From Planctomycetota bacterium (GTDB taxonomy: Bacteria; Planctomycetota; UBA1135; UBA2386): a stretch of DNA of 34,973 nt. Below the pieces are notes generated by a model, which saw nothing but the letters and a program-made list of their open reading frames with translations, was not told the origin of the DNA and made no database searches. The position numbers and the translations under genes are program-made. Location: contig JAEUHV010000238.1 of assembly GCA_016794485.1 (NCBI GenBank), forward strand, positions 1 through 34,973, written 5' to 3'. Positions within the stretch are counted from its first letter, which is position 1, and every line of letters begins with the position of its first letter. Positions 5,806 to 28,281 of this stretch are shown in pieces.

Positions 5806-7485
5806 TTGGCGGTCGCCGCGCCCAGCGAACGCTGCCCGCACGTGCCGCCCCCTGCCCGTTGCGATCGACTGCGCCGCGTGGCGGTTCGCGCCGGCGTCGG
5901 CGCCCTTGCCGCAGGACTCGTCGCAGCAGGCGCCTTGTGGGCGATACCGATCGACCCGCCGGACGCCCCCATGGCCGCGGCCCGGATCGAGACGACGCCA
6001 CCGAACGCTCCGCAACCAGGCGCCGCCGGAGCGATCGTGCTCGACACCGCGGCGGGCGCGACCAGTAGCCCCCCGGCGCCCGACGACGCCGGCACCGCAT
6101 CCCCACCGCCGCCTTCACCAGGCCGGACCCGGATCTGCGTGCACGTCGTCGACACGGCCGGAACGCCGGTGGCGGGTGCGCGGGTCGTCCTGGTCGCAGG
6201 CGAACGCGACCTGGTGCGGTCCTGCACCGACGACCAGGGAAGCGCCCACCTGGAACTCGTGCCCGAGGCGATCGCCTGCCGCGCGCACGCCGTCGGGTTC
6301 CTGCCGCACACGGTCGCGGTGGCGGCGATGGCGACGACGCGCATCGAGCTGCCGCGAGCACCGTGCGTACACGGCCGCGTGTTCGCTGCGGACGGGCAGC
6401 CGCAAGCCGGAGTCGAGTTCGCGCTGCTGCCCACGGTCGCAGGCCGGCGCGGGCCACCACCGAGGCTTCCGCTCGACACGCACACCGTGCACAGCGACGC
6501 GCGCGGCCACTTCCGCTTGCCTTGGCCGTCGACGACGCCGCACGACCTGATCGCGTGCAGCCGCGGCCATGCCCCTCTGGTCGTGCCCGCGTTGCGACCG
6601 CCGAACGACGCGCCGTTGCTGCTGACCCTGGTCGCCGGCGCCACGCTGGTCGGCGTCGCCTGCGACGGCACGGAGCGCACGCCGCACGCCGTGGTCGAAG
6701 TCTGGACCGCCGCCGAAGAGCCCGGCGGCACGACGTTCGGCCCCGCGGTGCCATGGCGTGGCGGGCAGCTGCTCGCCCACACCCGCTGCGATGCGACGGG
6801 CGCCTTCCGCTTCCCCGACGTGCCGGAAGGTCGTGCGTGGCTGACGTTCGGCGCCGCGACGCCGTGGCACGGCCAGGTGGCCGTGGACCTGGCCCGCGCG
6901 CAGACAACGCAGGTGGAACTGCGCGCCAGCGCCCAGGCCAGCGTGTCCGGGGTCGTGCAAGGTGCCGACCGCGACGCGCAGGTGTTCGTGTTCGGCGGCA
7001 CCCTGCCGGTGCAGACGCGGGCGATCGCCCTCGACGGAACGTTCGCCGCGATCGAAGTGCCGCCCGGCCGCTACCTCGTCGGCGTCGCGACACCGCCGAT
7101 CGCGCCGCTGCTCCACGCCGCGGTGCAGCAATGGTCGCTCGACGGCCGCACGGATCTGGCGCAGCCGATCACGCTGCAGGCCGGGGAACGGCGCGCGTTG
7201 CGGCTTGCGGCAGGCAACGTCGCCGAAGGCAGGGTGGCCGGCGTGGCGTTCGTGGCCGGACGCCCGGCGCTCGACCACTGCGTGGTGTTGGATTCGGTCC
7301 CGGCCGCGGGCGCCCGCCGCCGCACCTGCGTCGTGCGCGCCGACGGGTCGTTCGAATCCCCGGCCTTGCCCGGAGGCCTGTGGCTGGTCAGCCTGCAGGC
7401 CGCGCCTGGCTCCGCCGATCTGGCCAGCACGACGTGCCGGGTGCACGCCGGCGCAACATCGCGCGCGATGCTCTCGGCACCGTGA
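5806..7485 (+). CDS. Membrane-anchored or secreted protein with about five carboxypeptidase-regulatory-like beta-sandwich repeats
   Basis: 559 residues if the TTG at 5806 is used. In-frame GTG codons at 5842 and 5878 would also keep the single hydrophobic helix (GVGALAAGLVAAGALWAI, about residues 30-47), so the exact start is open. A Pro/Ala-rich linker (48-105) follows. Then come about five repeats of 70-100 residues, each built like a CarboxypepD_reg/FN3-like domain: a V.G.V...G.PVAGA.V opening and a D..G.F.......G....V closing. Examples begin near 108, 186, 285, 385 and 465. Such domains bind or present extracellular ligands, or act as rigid spacers. No active site is seen. It is divergent from the lipoprotein gene and converges on the acyltransferase gene with only 13 bases between stops. 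Confidence 0.72.
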   Translation: MAVAAPSERCPHVPPPARCDRLRRVAVRAGVGALAAGLVAAGALWAIPIDPPDAPMAAARIETTPPNAPQPGAAGAIVLDTAAGATSSPPAPDDAGTASPPPPSPGRTRICVHVVDTAGTPVAGARVVLVAGERDLVRSCTDDQGSAHLELVPEAIACRAHAVGFLPHTVAVAAMATTRIELPRAPCVHGRVFAADGQPQAGVEFALLPTVAGRRGPPPRLPLDTHTVHSDARGHFRLPWPSTTPHDLIACSRGHAPLVVPALRPPNDAPLLLTLVAGATLVGVACDGTERTPHAVVEVWTAAEEPGGTTFGPAVPWRGGQLLAHTRCDATGAFRFPDVPEGRAWLTFGAATPWHGQVAVDLARAQTTQVELRASAQASVSGVVQGADRDAQVFVFGGTLPVQTRAIALDGTFAAIEVPPGRYLVGVATPPIAPLLHAAVQQWSLDGRTDLAQPITLQAGERRALRLAAGNVAEGRVAGVAFVAGRPALDHCVVLDSVPAAGARRRTCVVRADGSFESPALPGGLWLVSLQAAPGSADLASTTCRVHAGATSRAMLSAP

Positions 7486-9142: not shown

Positions 9143-10336
9143 ATGACCGCCACCCCGGACCCGATCCGCCTGCGCGACCTCGGCCAGAAGGCCACAGCCG
9201 GCGGAATGCTGTCGCCCGACGAGGCACTCGCGCTCTACCGCGGCCTCGACCAACCCTCGCTCGGCCTGCTCGCGCACGACGTTCGCCTGCGCCTCAATCC
9301 GCCGCAGCCCGACGGCACGGTGCGCGTCACCTACATCGTCGACCGCAACCTCAACCCGACCAACGTCTGCGTCACCGACTGCGGCTTCTGCGCGTTCTAC
9401 CGTTCGCCGAACGACGCCGAGGCCTACGTGCTGCCGCGCGAGGTCATCTACCAGAAGGTCGACGAACTGGTCGCGAAGGGCGGCAACCAGCTGCTGCTCC
9501 AAGGTGGTCACCACCCGTACTTCAAGACCGACTGGTATGCCGAACTGTTCCGCGACCTGAAGCAGCGCTACCCGCAGGTCTGGATCCACGGCATGAGCCC
9601 GCCCGAGATCACGCACGTGGCACGGCTCGAGAAGCGTCCGGTGCGCGCGGTGCTGCAGGACCTGAAGGCCGCCGGCCTCGACTCGATCCCCGGCGGCGGC
9701 GCCGAGATCCTGGTCGAACGCGTGCGCAAGATCATCGCGCCGAAGAAGGCCACCACCGAACAATGGCTCGACGTGATGCGGCAGTGGGCCGCACTCGGCG
9801 GCCACGGCAGCGCGACGATGATGTTCGGGCACGTCGAGACCGACGCCGAACGCATCGAGCACATGACGCGCATCCGCGAGTTGCAGCAGGAGACCGGCGG
9901 CGTGTTCACCGCATTCATCCCGTGGACGTTCCAGCCGGAGAACACGCCCAAGGGTCCCGAACTGCTCGCCGGCCGCGGCGGGCTGAAGGCCACCGTCGCC
10001 GAGTACCTGCGCACGCTGAGCCTGTCGCGCCTCTACCTGCAGAACGTGCCGCACGTGCAGTCGAGCTTCGTGACGCAGGGCATGAAGGTCTGCCAGATCG
10101 GGCTGTCGATGGGCGCCGACGACTTCGGCTCGGCGATGCTCGAAGAGAACGTGGTCAGCTCGGCCGGCTGCTCGCACCCGACGTCGATCCCGGAGATCGA
10201 ACGGCACATCAAGGACGCGGGCTACGTGCCGCAGCGGCGCAACATGATGTACGAACCGGTCGCGACGCCCGTGACCGACAAGTTCGGCAACCCCGTCGGG
10301 CAGAAGAAGGTCGTCACCAGCCAGGTCGAGGCCTGA
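9143..10336 (+). CDS. mqnC: Cyclic dehypoxanthinyl futalosine synthase (radical SAM)
   Basis: 397 residues. The radical-SAM cluster motif CVTDCGFC (Cys76, Cys80, Cys83, CxxxCxxC) lies in the RNLNPTNVC...AFYRSP context characteristic of MqnC. Further matches are GGNQLLLQGGHHP (about 112-124), WIHGMSPPEI (about 150), DSIPGGGAEIL (about 187-197), FIPWTFQPENTP and the C-terminal EENVVSSAG segment. MqnC cyclises dehypoxanthine futalosine in the futalosine route to menaquinone, using S-adenosylmethionine and a 4Fe-4S cluster in the cytoplasm. The ATG at 9143 is preferred because the upstream frame is non-coding in character. It lies 47 bases before the Uma2 gene; the later pathway enzyme-coding genes mqnA, mqnB and mqnD are not in the window, while mqnE lies 12.5 kb away. 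Assignment is strong. Confidence 0.95.
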   Translation: MTATPDPIRLRDLGQKATAGGMLSPDEALALYRGLDQPSLGLLAHDVRLRLNPPQPDGTVRVTYIVDRNLNPTNVCVTDCGFCAFYRSPNDAEAYVLPREVIYQKVDELVAKGGNQLLLQGGHHPYFKTDWYAELFRDLKQRYPQVWIHGMSPPEITHVARLEKRPVRAVLQDLKAAGLDSIPGGGAEILVERVRKIIAPKKATTEQWLDVMRQWAALGGHGSATMMFGHVETDAERIEHMTRIRELQQETGGVFTAFIPWTFQPENTPKGPELLAGRGGLKATVAEYLRTLSLSRLYLQNVPHVQSSFVTQGMKVCQIGLSMGADDFGSAMLEENVVSSAGCSHPTSIPEIERHIKDAGYVPQRRNMMYEPVATPVTDKFGNPVGQKKVVTSQVEA

Positions 10337-19900: not shown

Positions 19901-21646
19901 TCAGCCGCGCGTCGTGAACGCGCGCACCGCGGCTTCGGTGGCGAGCACGACGGCGTCCAGTTCGGCCCGCCGTTCCGGCACGAGGCGACCCGCCTTGCCC
20001 GCATCCTCGAGTTCGGCCGTCAACGCGCGCAACCGCGCAGCACCGACCGACGCCGCGGCCCCCTTCACTGCGTGCGCCGACTTCTGCAGTTCCTTCGCGT
20101 CGCTGCCCGCGAGGGCCGTGCGCACCGCGTCGACACTGGCGGCGAGGTGCTGCAGCCAGACTTCGCACAGCCGCACCAGGAGGCCACGCTTGCCGCCGAC
20201 CAGCTCGAGCGCCGCGGCCTCGTCGAACTCCGCCAACGGCTTCGCGGCGGCAGCCTGGGTCGCAGCCGGCTCCGACGCGGTCGCCGCCGTCGCGGCGGTG
20301 ACCGGAGCGGTTGCGGGCGCGCCGGACTGGGCGCGCGGGAGCAGGCGAACCATCGCCCGCAGCAGTTCTTCCTGACGGAACGGCTTGCCGAGCAGTCCCT
20401 GCATGCCGGCTTCGACGACCGCATCGCGGTTGTCGGGCGAAACGTCGGCGGAGACGGCGAGGATCGGGCCGCGGAATCCCTGGTAGCGGATCTTGCGGGT
20501 CGCCTGCAGCCCGGTCATTCCGGGCATGTGGCAGTCCATCAGCACGATGTCCGGTGGGCTCGCCTTCACCTTGCGGATCGACTCCGCACCGTCCTCTGCC
20601 AGCTGCACGCTGCAACCCAGTTCCACGAGCATGGCCTCGCCGATCGTGCGATTGACCGGGTGGTCGTCGACGAGCAAGGCGCGCACGCCGCGCAGCGAAA
20701 CGCCCGTCGGCACGGGCTCGGGTTCCTCGAGCTTGTCTGCGACCTTGTGCACCGTGGTGAACGTGAAGGTCGTGCCCACGCCGACCTCCGACTGCACGCG
20801 GATCGCGCCGCCCATCGCTTCGATGATGCGCTTCACGATCGACAGGCCGAGCCCGGTGCCGCCGAATCGCCGCGTGGTCGCGGCTTCCGCCTGCGAGAAC
20901 GGCTGGAACATCCGGCCCAGCGCGTTCGGCGGGATGCCACACCCGGTGTCCGCCACGCGCCAATCCACGGTGCACTGCCCGTCCGCGCCGGTGGTGCACG
21001 CCACGCGGACCGAGAGTTCGCCTTTCGCGGTGAACTTCAGTGCGTTGCTGAGCAGGTTGCCGAGCACCTGGCCGAGGCGGTGCGTGTCGCCGAGCAGCAG
21101 GCAGCGCGGGGCCACCGGCATGTCGACACGCAGCGTCAGGCCCTTCTGCACGGCGGCGACGGCATAGGCCTGCACGGCCTGGTGCACCTGGTCCTGCAGG
21201 CACAGCGGCCGCGCTTCGATCTCGAGCTTGCCCGATTCGATGCGCGTCCAATCGAGCACGTCGCCGATCACGCGCAACAGGCGACCACTGGACTGCTGGC
21301 ACAACGTGACGAGTTCGCGCTGGCGTTCGTCGAGCGTGGTGCGGCCGAGCACGTCGATGGTCCCCGACAAGCCGTGCAGCGGAGTGCGCAGTTCGTGGCT
21401 CATCTGCGCCAGGAAGTCGGACTTCGCCTGGTTGGCGGCCTGGGCCGTGCCGAGCGCGTCGCGCAGCTCGACCGTGCGCAACTCGACGAGCTGCTCGAGC
21501 GTCTGGTTCTGCTGCTGCAGCGTTTCGTTGACGAGATACAGCTCGCGCGTCTTGTCCTCGATCACTTGCTCGAGGATCGCGATGCGCTGCTTCTCCCGCT
21601 GCAACCGCCGCTGCAGCACCGCGACCTCGTCGACCCCGTCGGTCAT
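19901..21646 (-). CDS. Soluble hybrid histidine kinase (HisKA-HATPase-REC-HPt), H-NOX partner
   Basis: 581 residues with no transmembrane segment. In order: an N-terminal coiled coil (about 8-65, Gln/Leu-rich); HisKA with phospho-acceptor His84 in SHELRTPLHG; an HATPase domain with N-box NLLSNALKF (198-205), G1 DTGCGIPP (233-240) and G2 GGTGLGL (262-268); a receiver domain (about 320-440) with Asp327/328, phospho-site Asp371 in LMDCHMPG and Lys421; an Ala/Pro/Thr linker (441-470); and an HPt domain with His525 in SAHAVKGAA. The full phosphorelay is in one chain. The start overlaps the H-NOX stop (ATGA). In characterised systems, H-NOX binds its partner kinase directly and NO-bound H-NOX inhibits autophosphorylation, so this is the expected output kinase. 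All catalytic residues look intact. Confidence 0.94.
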   Translation of the reverse strand: MTDGVDEVAVLQRRLQREKQRIAILEQVIEDKTRELYLVNETLQQQNQTLEQLVELRTVELRDALGTAQAANQAKSDFLAQMSHELRTPLHGLSGTIDVLGRTTLDERQRELVTLCQQSSGRLLRVIGDVLDWTRIESGKLEIEARPLCLQDQVHQAVQAYAVAAVQKGLTLRVDMPVAPRCLLLGDTHRLGQVLGNLLSNALKFTAKGELSVRVACTTGADGQCTVDWRVADTGCGIPPNALGRMFQPFSQAEAATTRRFGGTGLGLSIVKRIIEAMGGAIRVQSEVGVGTTFTFTTVHKVADKLEEPEPVPTGVSLRGVRALLVDDHPVNRTIGEAMLVELGCSVQLAEDGAESIRKVKASPPDIVLMDCHMPGMTGLQATRKIRYQGFRGPILAVSADVSPDNRDAVVEAGMQGLLGKPFRQEELLRAMVRLLPRAQSGAPATAPVTAATAATASEPAATQAAAAKPLAEFDEAAALELVGGKRGLLVRLCEVWLQHLAASVDAVRTALAGSDAKELQKSAHAVKGAAASVGAARLRALTAELEDAGKAGRLVPERRAELDAVVLATEAAVRAFTTRG

Positions 21647-22212
21647 GGGTGGACCGGCACCAGGGCGGGGAACGTGACCCGGAACGTGCAGCGCGGCTCG
21701 CCGCGTTGCTTGCAGCAGGTGTGGGTGTGCTGGAACGGCACGCTGAAGTGTTCGGCGCAGCCGTCGAGCAGCCCCGACATCAACGCACACAGGCCGCGGC
21801 GGCTCTCGTAGTGCACGTCGATCGCGTTCGGATCGTCGGCAACGGGCTGGCAGAGCAGGCTCGGCGGCTCGGCGCCGTCCATCAGCTTGCGCACCTCGAC
21901 GTGGATGATGCCGTTCACCGATTCGATCAGATGGCGCGGCGAGTCCATGCCCTTCACGAAGGCGGGGAATCGCTTGGCGAGGCCCGGGAAGCAGAACTTG
22001 CCGAACGCCCGCAGCGCGTCTTCCGGCGCGACCGCGAGGCGTTTGCACGCTGCCGTCAGCAGGTCGACGATCCACTGGTCCGGATAGGTCTTCGGGGAGA
22101 CGAACGGTTCGGCCGCCGCGTGCGGGCAGTCGTCGAGCAGCTGCTCGAACGTCGCCTCACCCCAGTTGCGCACCACGAACTCCTCGAACAGCACGAACAC
22201 GACGCCCTTCAC
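21643..22212 (-). CDS. H-NOX (HNOB) haem nitric-oxide sensor
   Basis: 189 residues, full H-NOX length, beginning at a GTG (VKGVVFVLFEEFV) that overlaps the receiver-gene stop as GTGA. The proximal haem ligand is His104 in SVNGIIHVEVRKL. The haem-distorting Pro is in AEPPSLL (116-117), and the propionate-binding YxSxR motif is YESRR (135-139). The position nine residues after the motif Tyr, where O2-binding H-NOX proteins carry a distal Tyr, is Leu144. This predicts NO selectivity. Cys142, His164, Cys167 and Cys175, with Cys166 beside them, are placed like the zinc-binding cysteines I recall from some proteobacterial H-NOX proteins. It acts in the cytoplasm with the hybrid kinase encoded next in the operon. 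A GGAG-type site precedes the GTG. Confidence 0.94.
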   Translation of the reverse strand: MKGVVFVLFEEFVVRNWGEATFEQLLDDCPHAAAEPFVSPKTYPDQWIVDLLTAACKRLAVAPEDALRAFGKFCFPGLAKRFPAFVKGMDSPRHLIESVNGIIHVEVRKLMDGAEPPSLLCQPVADDPNAIDVHYESRRGLCALMSGLLDGCAEHFSVPFQHTHTCCKQRGEPRCTFRVTFPALVPVHP

Positions 22213-22613
22213 GGCTTCGCTCCGGTGCGGTTCTCCGCGACCTTGCGCAAGGCCTCGTCGAGCTTCGGCACGGACACCGGCTTGTTGAGGTAGGCGTCGG
22301 CCTTTTGCCGGAACGCCGCGACCACGTCCTGCGCGTCGCTCGACGCGGTGACGACCACGACGCCGGTGCGGCTGCCCTTGCGCATGTACTGGTCCACTTC
22401 GCGGATCATCGCCACGGTTTCCAGGCCGTCGGGCCCGGGCATCGACAGGTCGAGGCACACCACGTCGTAGGGCTTGCCGGCTCGCACCGCCTCGCGCACC
22501 TGCTCGATCGCGATCGCCGCGTTCTCGACTTCGTCGACTTCGCCGACTTCGGACAGCAGCATTCGCAGGTGCAGACGGGCGGTGGGTTCGTCGTCGACGA
22601 CAAGGCAGCGCAT
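22209..22613 (-). CDS. Single-domain response regulator (CheY-like receiver)
   Basis: 134 residues, a receiver domain and nothing else. Acidic pocket Asp7-Asp8, phospho-acceptor Asp55 in CLDLSMPGPDG, switch Thr89 and Lys111 in LNKPVSV are all present. It is the first gene of the operon, and its stop overlaps the GTG of the H-NOX gene. Its start has a GAGAGGAACCACC ribosome site. The likely job is to accept phosphate from the HPt domain of the hybrid kinase and pass the signal by protein contact, since no DNA-binding or enzymatic output domain is attached. Targets are not visible in the window; stand-alone receivers in other H-NOX relays act as adaptors or phosphate sinks. Confidence 0.93.
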   Translation of the reverse strand: MRCLVVDDEPTARLHLRMLLSEVGEVDEVENAAIAIEQVREAVRAGKPYDVVCLDLSMPGPDGLETVAMIREVDQYMRKGSRTGVVVVTASSDAQDVVAAFRQKADAYLNKPVSVPKLDEALRKVAENRTGAKP

Positions 22614-22833
22614 GGTGGTTCCTCTCCGGGCGCCAGCATCGGCAACCGCGGGCTCCGGGCTTAGCGGCTCCGGGTCGTGGTTTGTCCCTAGCCCCGACGC
22701 CCCACGGGATGACAGCCATGCCATCGCCGCCGCGTTTCGCCCCGGATCCGGGACTTGCCCGGCCCTGCGCCCCGAACGGCCGCCGTGCCCTTCTCCGGCA
22801 GCGGCTGCGGGCCTAACTTGCTCGCCCCGCACC
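22614..22833. other. 220-base divergent control region between the H-NOX operon and mqnE
   Basis: This is the longest non-coding divergent spacer apart from the small-ORF region. On the plus side TAACTT (22814-22819) sits 14 bases before the mqnE ATG. On the minus side a GAGAGGAA ribosome site precedes the receiver gene, with TAAGCC and TAGGGA as weak -10 candidates 50-80 bases further up. No clear palindrome was found. Confidence 0.5.
22814..22819 (+). promoter_or_regulatory. Start-proximal -10 box (TAACTT) for mqnE
   Basis: TAACTT lies in GGCCTAACTTGCTCG, closely similar to the stretch before mqnC. It ends 14 bases before the ATG at 22834, giving a predicted leader of about eight nucleotides. 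No Shine-Dalgarno sequence is present. Confidence 0.5.
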
Positions 22834-23973
22834 ATGACCGACTTCGCCTACGCCCACCTCGACGAATCCCTGGCGACGAAGCTCATCCAGAAGGCCGGCC
22901 TCGGCGACATCGACGCCAAGGTCCGCGCCGGCACACGCCTGTCGTTCGAGGACGGCGTGCGACTCTACGAGACGCCGCACCTCGCCGCAGTCGGCCTGAT
23001 GGCGCACCGCGTGCGCACGCGGCTGCACGGCAAGAAGACGTTCTTCAACATCAACCAGCACGTCAACTACACGAACATCTGCATCTACTCGTGCAAGTTC
23101 TGCGCGTTCGCGGCGAAGGAAGGCGAAGAGCGCGCCTACCTGATGACGCCGGCGATCGTCGAGCAGAAGGTGCGCGAGCAGCTGCACCGCCCGGTCACCG
23201 AGGTGCACATGGTCGCCGGCATCCACCCGACGATGCCGTACGAGTACTACCTCGACGTCGTGCGTGCGGCGAAGCGTGCGCGACCCGACATCCACGTCAA
23301 GGCGTTCACGATGGTCGAAATCGACCACATGCTGAAGATCTCCGGCAAGAGCGAGGCCGAGGTGTTCGCCGACCTGCGCGCGGCGGGCCTCGGCAGCTGC
23401 CCGGGCGGCGGCGCCGAAGTGCTGGTCGACCGCGTGCACAAGGCGGTGTTCCGCGAGAAGCAGGGCCCGCAGGGCTGGCTCGACACCGCGCGCAAGGTGC
23501 AGCAGGCCGGCTTCAAGATGAACGCGACGATGTTGTACGGCCACATCGAGCGCGTCGACGAACGCGTCACGCACCTGGTGAAGTTGCGCGAGCTGCAGGA
23601 CGAGTGCGGCGGCTTCATGGCCTACATCCCGCTCGCGTTCTGGCCGTACCACACCGACCTCGCCAACTTCGGCCACGTCACGACGGGCCACCTCGACCAG
23701 CGCTCGGTCGCGGTCGGCCGGCTGATGCTCGACAACTTCCCGCACATCAAGGCCTACTGGATCATGCTGACCCAGGAGTCGGCGCAGACCGCGCTGTCGT
23801 TCGGCGCCAACGACATCGATGGCACGGTGACCGAGGAGAAGATCACGCACGACGCCGGCACGACCGAGCCGCAGGCACTGAGCCCGGCCCAGCTGCAGCA
23901 CCTGATCCGCGAAGCGGGCTACGAACCGGTGCAGCGCACCACGGTCTACGAAGAGATCGGCGCGCCGGCCTGA
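22834..23973 (+). CDS. mqnE: Aminodeoxyfutalosine synthase (radical SAM)
   Basis: 379 residues. The cluster motif CIYSCKFC (Cys83, Cys87, Cys90) sits in NINQHVNYTNIC...AFAAKEGE, as in MqnE. Other matches are TEVHMVAGIHPTMPYEYY (about 125-142), GSCPGGGAEVL (about 188-198), MLYGHIERVDERV, FIP-type AYIPLAFWP and the late HDAGTTEPQ segment. MqnE adds the SAM-derived adenosyl radical to 3-[(1-carboxyvinyl)oxy]benzoate, the first radical step of the futalosine menaquinone pathway. mqnC at 9143 catalyses a later step, so the pathway is supported by two genes in one window. It is monocistronic or leads into the membrane-protein gene 70 bases downstream. Its paralogue MqnC and the F420 enzyme CofH are the only near alternatives, and the motifs favour MqnE. 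Confidence 0.93.
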   Translation: MTDFAYAHLDESLATKLIQKAGLGDIDAKVRAGTRLSFEDGVRLYETPHLAAVGLMAHRVRTRLHGKKTFFNINQHVNYTNICIYSCKFCAFAAKEGEERAYLMTPAIVEQKVREQLHRPVTEVHMVAGIHPTMPYEYYLDVVRAAKRARPDIHVKAFTMVEIDHMLKISGKSEAEVFADLRAAGLGSCPGGGAEVLVDRVHKAVFREKQGPQGWLDTARKVQQAGFKMNATMLYGHIERVDERVTHLVKLRELQDECGGFMAYIPLAFWPYHTDLANFGHVTTGHLDQRSVAVGRLMLDNFPHIKAYWIMLTQESAQTALSFGANDIDGTVTEEKITHDAGTTEPQALSPAQLQHLIREAGYEPVQRTTVYEEIGAPA

Positions 23974-25723: not shown

Positions 25724-26971
25724 TCACCGCACACCGGCGTGGTGCACGCCGTCGATCACGACGCCGATGCAGTGGCTCGTGTATTCGAACGGGTCGCCGT
25801 CGAACAACGCGACGTCGGCGTCCTTGCCCTTCTCCAGCGATCCGAGCCGCGCGTCGACCCCGAGCAGCTTCGCGGCATCGATCGTGAGCGCCCGCAGCGC
25901 CGCTTCGGCCGGCAGACCGTGCCCGACCGCAACCCCGGCCTCCCACAGCACCACGCGCGTCTTCGGAACGTAGGCCTCGTAGCCGCTCTGCAGGGCGAAC
26001 GGAACCTTCGCGTCGTGCAGCAGCTTCGCCAGCTCCATGGTGCCGTTCTTCAGTTCGCCACCGGTCCGGGCCATGGCCGGGTGCGGCAGCACCGCACAAC
26101 CGGCGGCCAGGATCTCGGGCCCGATCAGGTAGGCCTCGGCAGCGCCGTCGAGCACGACCGTGACCTCGAACTCCTTCGCGACGCGCAGTGCCGCGAGCAG
26201 GTCGTGGGCCCGGTGCGCGGTGACCAGCAGCGGCACCTCGCGCGCCAGGACCTTCGCCGTGGTCTCGAGGCCGAGGTCGACCGGGGTCTCGGGGTCCTTC
26301 TGCCGCTTCGCCGCGTACTCACGCGCCTTCTGCAGGTGCTCGCGCAGCATCGCCACGGATTTGGCGCGAGTGCCGGGCGCCTTGCCGCCGGCGGCCCGCC
26401 CACCGTCGCCGAGCGTCACCGCCAGCATGGCCAGCGGCTTCACGACGTCGGCCTCGACCGAACGACCGTGCGTCTTCACCACCATCGTCTGGCCCGACAC
26501 CAGGGCGCCGGGCCCGTGCCCGGTGTGCACCGTGGTGATGCCGAAGCCGCGCAACCAAACCACCAGGGGATCCTGGGCGTGGAACGCGTCGATCGCGCGC
26601 AGTTCGGGCTGGATCGGCGCCGACTTCTCGAGCTGGTCCTGATCGTGCGGAACGTTCAACACGCCGCTGAGGCCGACGGTCGCGTGCGCGTCGATCAGCC
26701 CAGGCGTCGCCACCTTCGCCACGACGACCGGCAGATCGGGCGGCAAGGCGACCTCTGCGGCCGGGCCGACCTGTTCGATCTTGCCGTCGCGCACGACGAC
26801 GACGCCGTCCGCGATCGGCGCCCCCGCCATCGTCACCAGCGTCGCCGCACGCACCGCGAAGTGCTTCGTCGCGGCCGACGGCGCGACCGGTGCTACCGGT
26901 GCAACCGGCGCGACCGGGTCCTGCGGCCCGCACGCCACCACCACCACCACCACGAGGAGCGAGCCGAACAT
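25724..26971 (-). CDS. Amidohydrolase-like lipoprotein lacking most metal ligands (probable pseudoenzyme)
   Basis: 415 residues. The N-terminus is a lipoprotein signal (MFGSLLVVVVVVAC, Cys14) followed by a Val-Ala-Pro repeat linker. The TIM-barrel amidohydrolase frame is clear: GVVVVRDGKIEQVGPAAEV, TPGLIDAHATVG and the C-terminal LGSLEKGKDADVALFDGDPFEYTSHCIGVVIDG. Where active relatives have HxH, this protein has His-Ala-Thr (His96). Where the partner gene has LHH and HTDD, it has LDG (about 274) and QSGY (about 328). Only the AHRAHD histidine (253) is kept. It is therefore unlikely to hold a binuclear or mononuclear metal site. It is translated with the intact paralogue upstream (TGATG overlap, with AGGAGG seven bases before the ATG). 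A binding or scaffold partner role is inferred. Confidence 0.82.
   Translation of the reverse strand: MFGSLLVVVVVVACGPQDPVAPVAPVAPVAPSAATKHFAVRAATLVTMAGAPIADGVVVVRDGKIEQVGPAAEVALPPDLPVVVAKVATPGLIDAHATVGLSGVLNVPHDQDQLEKSAPIQPELRAIDAFHAQDPLVVWLRGFGITTVHTGHGPGALVSGQTMVVKTHGRSVEADVVKPLAMLAVTLGDGGRAAGGKAPGTRAKSVAMLREHLQKAREYAAKRQKDPETPVDLGLETTAKVLAREVPLLVTAHRAHDLLAALRVAKEFEVTVVLDGAAEAYLIGPEILAAGCAVLPHPAMARTGGELKNGTMELAKLLHDAKVPFALQSGYEAYVPKTRVVLWEAGVAVGHGLPAEAALRALTIDAAKLLGVDARLGSLEKGKDADVALFDGDPFEYTSHCIGVVIDGVHHAGVR
26883..26918. repeat. Four 9-base tandem units encoding a Val-Ala-Pro linker
   Basis: Four imperfect copies of GCnACCGGn lie back to back. They encode the proline-rich spacer just after the lipidated Cys of the amidohydrolase-like lipoprotein. 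Units differ mainly at wobble positions, so copy-number change would keep the frame. A run of six Val codons in the signal peptide lies beside it. Confidence 0.6.
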
Positions 26972-28281
26972 CACTGGCCCTCCTGGCTGCCGAAGCAGCA
27001 CATCGACTGGGCCTGGCCGTCGGAGGCACCGTAGCCGCCGTTCGCGAACAGGCGGTCCTTCGCGTCCGCGAGGTCGAACACCTTCTTGCCCTCGACCCAC
27101 GTCTGCAGCACGCGGGTGTAGACCGAGAGCGGATCCCCCGACAGCACCACGAAGTCGGCGTCCTTGCCGGGCGACAGCGACCCGACGCGATCCTGCAGGT
27201 CGAGCATGCGGGCGTTGTTGATCGTCACTGCCGCCAGCGCGTGGTCGCGGGCCATGCCGGCCCGCACCGCGAGTGCGGCCGAACGCAGGAACAGGCGGCT
27301 GTCGGTGATGCCGTCGTCGGTGTGCAGGCCGACCAACACGCCGGCCCGGTCGAGCACCGCAGCGGTCTGCAGCGACAGGTTCGCGGCCTCGAGCTTGCCA
27401 CCCGGCGAATCGATCACGATGACCGAGCAGGGGATCTTCGCCGCGGCGATCGCGTCGGCGACCATCCAGCCCTCGCTGACGTGGTGCAGCACGCAGCGGA
27501 AGCCGAACTCCTGCTGCAGGCGCAGCACCGTCTGGATGTCGTCGGCACGGTGCGTGTGGTGGTGCACCACGCGCTTGCCCTCGAGCACCTCGACCAGGGC
27601 TTCGAGGCCGAGTGCGCGTTCGGGCGCCTTGCTCGCATCGTCCTTGGCGGCGGCGAGCTTCTTCTGGTGGTCGCGAGCGCGGTGCAGCTGTGCCCGCATC
27701 AACGCGGCGGCCTTGCCGCGCGTGCCGGCGAACGGCGGCTCCTTCTGCGGGTTGGTGCCGTTCGCCATCTTGATGCCGCCCGCAACCGTGCCGTCCGCGG
27801 CGCGGATCGCCAGTTCGTCGACGGTGCGCGCGTCGCGCAACTTCAGGTAGACCGTCTGGCCCGACAGCAGGTGGCCCGAACCCGGCATCACGTTCACCGT
27901 GGTGATGCCACCGGCCTGCGCCTTCTGGATGCCGGGGTCGAACGGATCCACCGCGTCGAGAGCTCGCACCTCGGGCTGGATCGGGCCGCTGCCGTCGGCG
28001 CCGGCGACCGCACCGATGTGCGAGTGGCTGCAGACGAGTCCCGGCACGATCGTGCGTCCCGCGGCGTCGATGCGCACGGCGTCGTCCGGCACCTTCACGT
28101 CGGCGACGGCACCGAGCGCCACGATGCGCCCGCCGTGCACCAGCAGCGTGCCGCGCTCGATCGCGGGGGCGTCGACCGGTTCGATGCGCGCCCCGACGAA
28201 GGCGTGCGGTTGCTGTTGGGCGACGGCAATTCCCAGCAACCAAAGAGGTGTCGAGAACATCGACGATCGGCGAAGACGCAT
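26971..28281 (-). CDS. Exported amidohydrolase with intact metal-ligand pattern
   Basis: 436 residues from the ATG at 28281; an internal ATG (residue 8) would give a tighter signal peptide (MFSTPLWLLGIAVAQ). Amidohydrolase-superfamily landmarks are AIERGTLLVHGGRIVALG, TIVPGLVCSHSHIG with His86 and His88, VVHHHTHRADD (His244 region), CVLHHVSEGW (His266/267), VGLHTDDGITD (Asp322/323) and GSLSPGKDADFVVLSGDPL. The set resembles imidazolonepropionase/isoaspartyl-dipeptidase-like enzymes that hydrolyse amide or cyclic amide bonds, but the substrate is unknown. The C-terminal ~30 residues (GGYGASDGQAQSMCCF) are Gly/Ser/Cys-rich and unusual. It is followed in coupled translation by the metal-ligand-poor paralogue. 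A TAGTCT box eight bases before the ATG suggests a near-leaderless mRNA. Export to the periplasm is inferred from the signal peptide. Confidence 0.85.
   Translation of the reverse strand: MRLRRSSMFSTPLWLLGIAVAQQQPHAFVGARIEPVDAPAIERGTLLVHGGRIVALGAVADVKVPDDAVRIDAAGRTIVPGLVCSHSHIGAVAGADGSGPIQPEVRALDAVDPFDPGIQKAQAGGITTVNVMPGSGHLLSGQTVYLKLRDARTVDELAIRAADGTVAGGIKMANGTNPQKEPPFAGTRGKAAALMRAQLHRARDHQKKLAAAKDDASKAPERALGLEALVEVLEGKRVVHHHTHRADDIQTVLRLQQEFGFRCVLHHVSEGWMVADAIAAAKIPCSVIVIDSPGGKLEAANLSLQTAAVLDRAGVLVGLHTDDGITDSRLFLRSAALAVRAGMARDHALAAVTINNARMLDLQDRVGSLSPGKDADFVVLSGDPLSVYTRVLQTWVEGKKVFDLADAKDRLFANGGYGASDGQAQSMCCFGSQEGQ

Follow-up and report, generated by a model that had tools for sequence, protein, structure and literature searches.

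The window, by which we mean the entire 34,973-nucleotide contig (C603) analysed here, belongs to a 5.94-Mb draft genome (G000) of 605 contigs that is 83% complete. On its minus strand, three genes follow one another in the order lone receiver (22613–22209), H-NOX (22212–21643) and hybrid histidine kinase (21646–19901), with the receiver stop codon overlapping the GTG start of the H-NOX gene by four bases (GTGA) and the H-NOX stop codon overlapping the kinase ATG by another four (ATGA). Re-reading of the sequence bore out the coordinates, strand and overlaps reported for this operon in an earlier note on the same DNA, and all residues named there were found in place. The features of the locus are as follows.

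22209–22613, minus strand: lone receiver domain protein, 134 amino acids, Asp55 as phospho-acceptor, without an output domain (Pfam Response_reg, 73.9 bits)
21643–22212, minus strand: H-NOX haem sensor, 189 amino acids, GTG start, GTGA overlap with the receiver gene (Pfam HNOB, 113.5 bits)
21688–21789, minus strand: codons of the putative zinc ligands Cys142, His164, Cys167 and Cys175 (alignment with Shewanella oneidensis H-NOX)
19901–21646, minus strand: soluble hybrid histidine kinase with an N-terminal signalling helix, HisKA, HATPase, REC and HPt (Pfam and residues)
22614–22833, no strand: 220-base spacer from the receiver gene to the divergent mqnE (upstream-region alignments)
22834–23973, plus strand: mqnE, aminofutalosine synthase (TIGR03700, 453.6 bits, above cut-off)
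9143–10336: mqnC

Pfam matches above cut-off for every domain supported the reading of these genes as an H-NOX/hybrid-kinase system. The H-NOX matched HNOB (PF07700) far above the curated cut-off of 25.5 bits, and the receiver carries D8, D55, T89 and K111. In the kinase, HATPase_c (105.9 bits), Response_reg (88.9), HisKA (66.4) and Hpt (42.4) were all recognised, together with the relay residues His84 (HisKA), Asp371 (REC) and His525 (HPt); Pfam detected no sensor domain, and beyond the HisKA-HATPase-REC-HPt core there is just a conserved N-terminal helix. The kinase thus has the makeup of the H-NOX-associated hybrid type, which adjoins an H-NOX, has no sensor domain of its own and contains HisKA, HATPase and REC. 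Taken together, the overlapping trio probably encodes an NO sensor that works through haem and controls its partner kinase.

Conservation of the operon and its lone receiver

We found the operon in the window and in four relatives, with H-NOX identities to the window of 78% (G026), 74% (G032), 60% (G029) and approximately 56% (G005), an overall range of 55–78%. Kinase orthologues are present in G026, G032 (where the gene is cut by the contig end), G029 and G005. The three-gene order, which the earlier note had proposed as a test of its reading, is retained together with the 4-base overlaps in G026, G032 and G029, and G005 keeps the H-NOX and kinase with just a truncated remnant of the receiver; because of this retention, the arrangement is more than a chance one. 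The operon is a real, conserved and translationally coupled signalling unit, albeit slightly unusual in its arrangement.

The lone receiver is intact in four genomes (window, G026, G032 and G029). Since G005 has lost most of it while keeping the H-NOX and kinase, the module does not require the receiver. The G005 remnant (L027, ~6500–6690, minus strand) retains the first half of the domain, including the Asp, and has lost the second half with the Thr and Lys.

A survey across the phylum detected H-NOX at E ≤ 1e-6 in 39 of the 392 genomes drawn from it. Scanning 48 H-NOX loci for same-strand receivers up to 1.5 kb upstream returned the five members of the operon clade and three further genomes, G079, G089 and G273. 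The row in G079 (L041, 2046–3520, minus strand) runs from an HTH_17-receiver protein through two receivers to the H-NOX, and that in G273 (L056, 101–1482) has a single receiver between the HTH_17-receiver protein and the H-NOX. In the G089 row (L043, 2006–3468, minus strand), the receiver part of the same protein lies at the edge of the sequence covered, followed by two receivers, the H-NOX and a kinase. The receivers of these three genomes are just 25–33% identical to that of the window, so a receiver preceding an H-NOX is a recurring theme and not one inherited operon. In those distant planctomycetes, the HTH_17-receiver protein could be the DNA-binding output of H-NOX signalling. A search for an orthologue of it in the family of the window genome gave matches that, with few exceptions, covered just the receiver part, and none was recognised as an orthologue.

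These observations bear on whether the lone receiver is the main target of the H-NOX and kinase at all. It might instead serve as a phosphate sink or as the partner of another kinase, with the true output lying elsewhere in the genome, an alternative that we regard as possible though doubtful. Such a role would be consistent with the lack of an output domain, with the decay of the receiver in G005 while its neighbours persist, and with the DNA-binding HTH-receiver proteins that accompany receivers and H-NOX in distant planctomycetes, no full-length relative of which was seen beside the operon here. However, the 4-base overlap has been kept in four genomes, and the receiver is 71–76% identical between the window and its two closest relatives, which argues against this alternative.

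Haem-pocket residues and probable zinc-thiol site of the H-NOX

The H-NOX carries His104, Pro116-Pro117, the YxSxR motif (Tyr135, Ser137 and Arg139) and Leu144. Among solved structures, it is closest to those of S. oneidensis H-NOX, with 4u99 as the best PDB match (E 4e-24). An AlphaFold model built from a ten-sequence alignment (pLDDT 74.5) superposed on 4u99 with a TM-score of 0.82, and its top Foldseek matches were H-NOX proteins without exception. His104, Pro117, YxSxR and Leu144 are kept in all five orthologues in the alignment. The distal position, assigned by counting five residues past the YxSxR Arg to Leu144, is what we take to be the equivalent of Tyr140 in O2-binding H-NOX. None of the 48 homologues aligned has a Tyr at this position, in agreement with the NO-type distal pocket proposed in the earlier note; given the non-Tyr residue, we would expect a pocket of the NO type rather than the O2 type, with corresponding ligand behaviour.

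In a phylogenetic tree, the operon H-NOX proteins group in one clade with full support; Nitrospirales H-NOX is its neighbour, and a second H-NOX of the same genome falls elsewhere. This second protein (L002, G000:C525, ~1498–2058) is 29% identical to the operon H-NOX and is followed by a hybrid kinase running from ~2040 to the contig end; the pair has neither the zinc motif nor an adjoining lone receiver, and an orthologue of the second H-NOX is present in G026 (L018).

Cys142, His164, Cys167 and Cys175 align exactly with Cys139, His161, Cys164 and Cys172 of S. oneidensis H-NOX, which have been named as its zinc ligands (PMC7108781). The three Cys are kept in all five orthologues, and the fourth ligand is His in the window, G026 and G032 and Gln in G029 and G005, an alternation already reported (PMC7108781). 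Zinc-site H-NOX proteins, groups 2 and 3 of that survey, are defined by three Cys and one His or Gln at fixed positions (PMC7108781), and the window H-NOX has this pattern; in S. oneidensis, Vibrio cholerae and Caulobacter H-NOX the same residues form a zinc site, whose oxidation has been published (PMC7108781, PMC12329717). Judged from the alignment, the four residues are a probable zinc site, so that this part of the zinc/thiol suggestion in the earlier note stands, while its novelty does not, as the idea is already in print for relatives.

The conservation of this motif in all five orthologues, together with the activation of haem-free V. cholerae H-NOX by Cys oxidation (PMC7108781), could point to a protein that is mainly a zinc-thiol redox sensor instead of a haem NO sensor. 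We consider this improbable, however, as His104, Pro117 and YxSxR are likewise kept in five of five orthologues, as expected under selection for haem binding, and we retain the haem-based NO sensor as the preferred reading.

Departures from the haem pocket were observed elsewhere. In genus g9 of the same family, Glu replaces the haem-ligating His in all three species covered (L011/L149 in G012, L009/L150 in G014 and L017/L151 in G013); the HNOB match was well above cut-off in the two proteins tested, and a normal-looking kinase adjoins. On the neighbouring branch, the H-NOX of G011 keeps the His. As this His was described as absolutely conserved in a survey of 598 H-NOX sequences (PMC7108781), the g9 proteins may be haem-less. 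A divergent homologue in G192 (L044, G192:C284:6942–7472) has Arg at the haem-His position, a broken YxSxR motif and an intact Cys-Gln-Cys-Cys set, and is possibly a zinc-only descendant of H-NOX.

The mqnE neighbourhood

The earlier note had inferred that the operon acts on mqnE by way of the spacer between them, and had called for a survey of their adjacency. Among the 34 genomes of the family, 29 contain mqnE and five the operon; within 1.5-kb flanks of the 29 mqnE loci, the receiver/H-NOX pair lies beside mqnE only in the window and G026, whose flanking genes otherwise agree too (rtcB, for instance, and those at 25724–28239). The operon and mqnE are 12.7 kb apart on one contig in G029 and on different contigs in G032 and G005, and the gene divergent from the receiver in G032 encodes a glycosyl hydrolase family 2 protein. 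Some contigs are short (3.2 kb in G032), which makes single synteny cases weak, although not the pattern over 29 loci. The gap between mqnC and mqnE measures ~115 bases in G027, which is without the operon, ~4.8 kb in G005, where glpK lies between, and 12.5 kb in the window; the simplest reading is that the operon sits by chance in a variable mqnC–mqnE interval.

No sigma-70 consensus was found in the 220-base spacer, and alignments of the mqnE-upstream and receiver-upstream regions confined its similarity to relatives to the gene-proximal stretches; we therefore rejected it as a shared promoter region. Next to mqnE, the sequence is similar to that of genomes with no operon nearby. An NO-regulated menaquinone locus was likewise set aside, given the linkage in just 2 of 29 loci.

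That the H-NOX relay regulates mqnE, and hence menaquinone (vitamin K2) synthesis, through a shared divergent promoter region is thus highly unlikely: the genes do diverge across 220 bases in the window and are adjacent in G026 also, but the synteny is not conserved, the operon-less G027 has mqnC directly preceding mqnE, the sequence proximal to mqnE is like that of genomes where the operon is not close by, and all three operon proteins lack a DNA-binding domain recognisable by Pfam. mqnE appears to be an accidental neighbour.

A putative H-NOX-controlled phosphorelay

The N-terminal helix of the kinase contains a motif (RERxARxxAExLLExKSRELYxANxxL) common to many kinases of the phylum that adjoin an H-NOX. 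Of the 12 matches in the family that cover this helix, 11 adjoin an H-NOX; the twelfth is an orphan kinase in G002, a genome with no detected H-NOX, and its helix has diverged: compared with G005, identity is 48% there, as opposed to 60–66% in the other domains. From this co-occurrence and one natural exception, we propose the helix as a putative H-NOX docking site. The orphan kinase (L113, G002:C48, 406–1722, minus strand) has no HPt.

Taking these data together, we think it likely that the translationally coupled operon is an H-NOX-controlled phosphorelay with mqnE as a chance neighbour, for which we infer the ligand selectivity, the sign of regulation and the partner of the receiver. The H-NOX would bind NO and associate with the kinase, probably through the N-terminal helix. 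By analogy with known H-NOX/hybrid-kinase pairs, in which H-NOX carrying NO acts as an inhibitor of the kinase (PMC6759604, PMC12329717), NO-bound H-NOX may inhibit autophosphorylation or turn the kinase into a phosphatase. When NO is absent, phosphate would pass from His84 to Asp371, His525 and finally Asp55 of the lone receiver, possibly also reaching regulators elsewhere, and the zinc-thiol site may provide a second, oxidant input. With an HPt in the kinase and a lone receiver alongside, the operon by itself supplies every step needed to draw a full His-Asp-His-Asp relay. Its genes include none for a known output protein; lacking an output domain, the lone receiver would exert its effect through contact with other proteins, or serve as a phosphate sink or shuttle, and not as a transcription factor.

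The proposed relay resembles the H-NOX/HqsK systems of Vibrio harveyi and V. parahaemolyticus, which pair an H-NOX with a hybrid kinase in a His-Asp-His relay; there, NO-bound H-NOX inhibits HqsK, which relays to LuxU (PMC6759604). In Vibrio, however, the HPt function resides in a stand-alone protein, LuxU, that leads to LuxO, whereas the kinase of this operon includes an HPt domain and the H-NOX gene is preceded by that of a lone receiver. The S. oneidensis H-NOX/HnoK network contains the closest solved H-NOX, which has the same zinc ligands and a partner histidine kinase, but HnoK feeds HnoB (EAL), HnoC and HnoD (degenerate HD-GYP) (PMC6335343), none of which is found in this operon. Caulobacter similarly has a zinc-motif H-NOX adjoining a hybrid kinase; its HnoK, unlike the kinase here, is an HK-RR protein with no described HPt or lone receiver, and its downstream target was not identified (PMC12329717). 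The V. cholerae H-NOX has the same zinc-site positions, and its thiol oxidation was demonstrated in vitro (PMC7108781), with Gln as the fourth ligand in place of the His of the window H-NOX. Both the control of hybrid kinases by NO and redox sensing by a zinc-thiol site thus have published precedents in Vibrio, Shewanella and Caulobacter.

A literature search combining 'H-NOX' with 'Planctomycet' found no paper, and the operon extends a well-studied gas-sensor family to uncultured planctomycetes, a lineage that has received little study. Given the fused HPt and the lone receiver, three proteins would suffice to test the entire relay in vitro, and the family offers natural tests of the sensor in the relative that has lost most of its receiver (G005), the orphan kinase with a drifted helix (G002) and the sister genus whose H-NOX is without the haem ligand (g9). 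More speculatively, and with rather low probability, the two parallel H-NOX/hybrid-kinase systems of this genome, one with and one without a zinc-thiol site, might split NO and oxidant signals, the zinc type being a self-contained four-step relay that ends in an output-less, contact-acting receiver. We know of no description of an output-less receiver acting by protein contact as an output mode for H-NOX.

As to the source of NO, no NirK exceeded the cut-off in any of the five genomes with the operon. In the genome of the window, which is 83% complete, we recognised no COX1 protein of the NO-reductase-like kind, so an external source may supply the NO. Caulobacter, which bears H-NOX/HnoK, is not known to denitrify (PMC12329717). 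A second COX1-family protein of the genome was considered as an NO reductase and rejected, as it is a fused CcoN-FixO (cbb3-type) oxidase: this 788-residue protein (L132, 1447–3813; G000:C230) joins COX1 and FixO domains, corresponding to the cbb3 oxidase subunits CcoN and CcoO. G005 encodes a divergent COX1-family protein of 461 residues.
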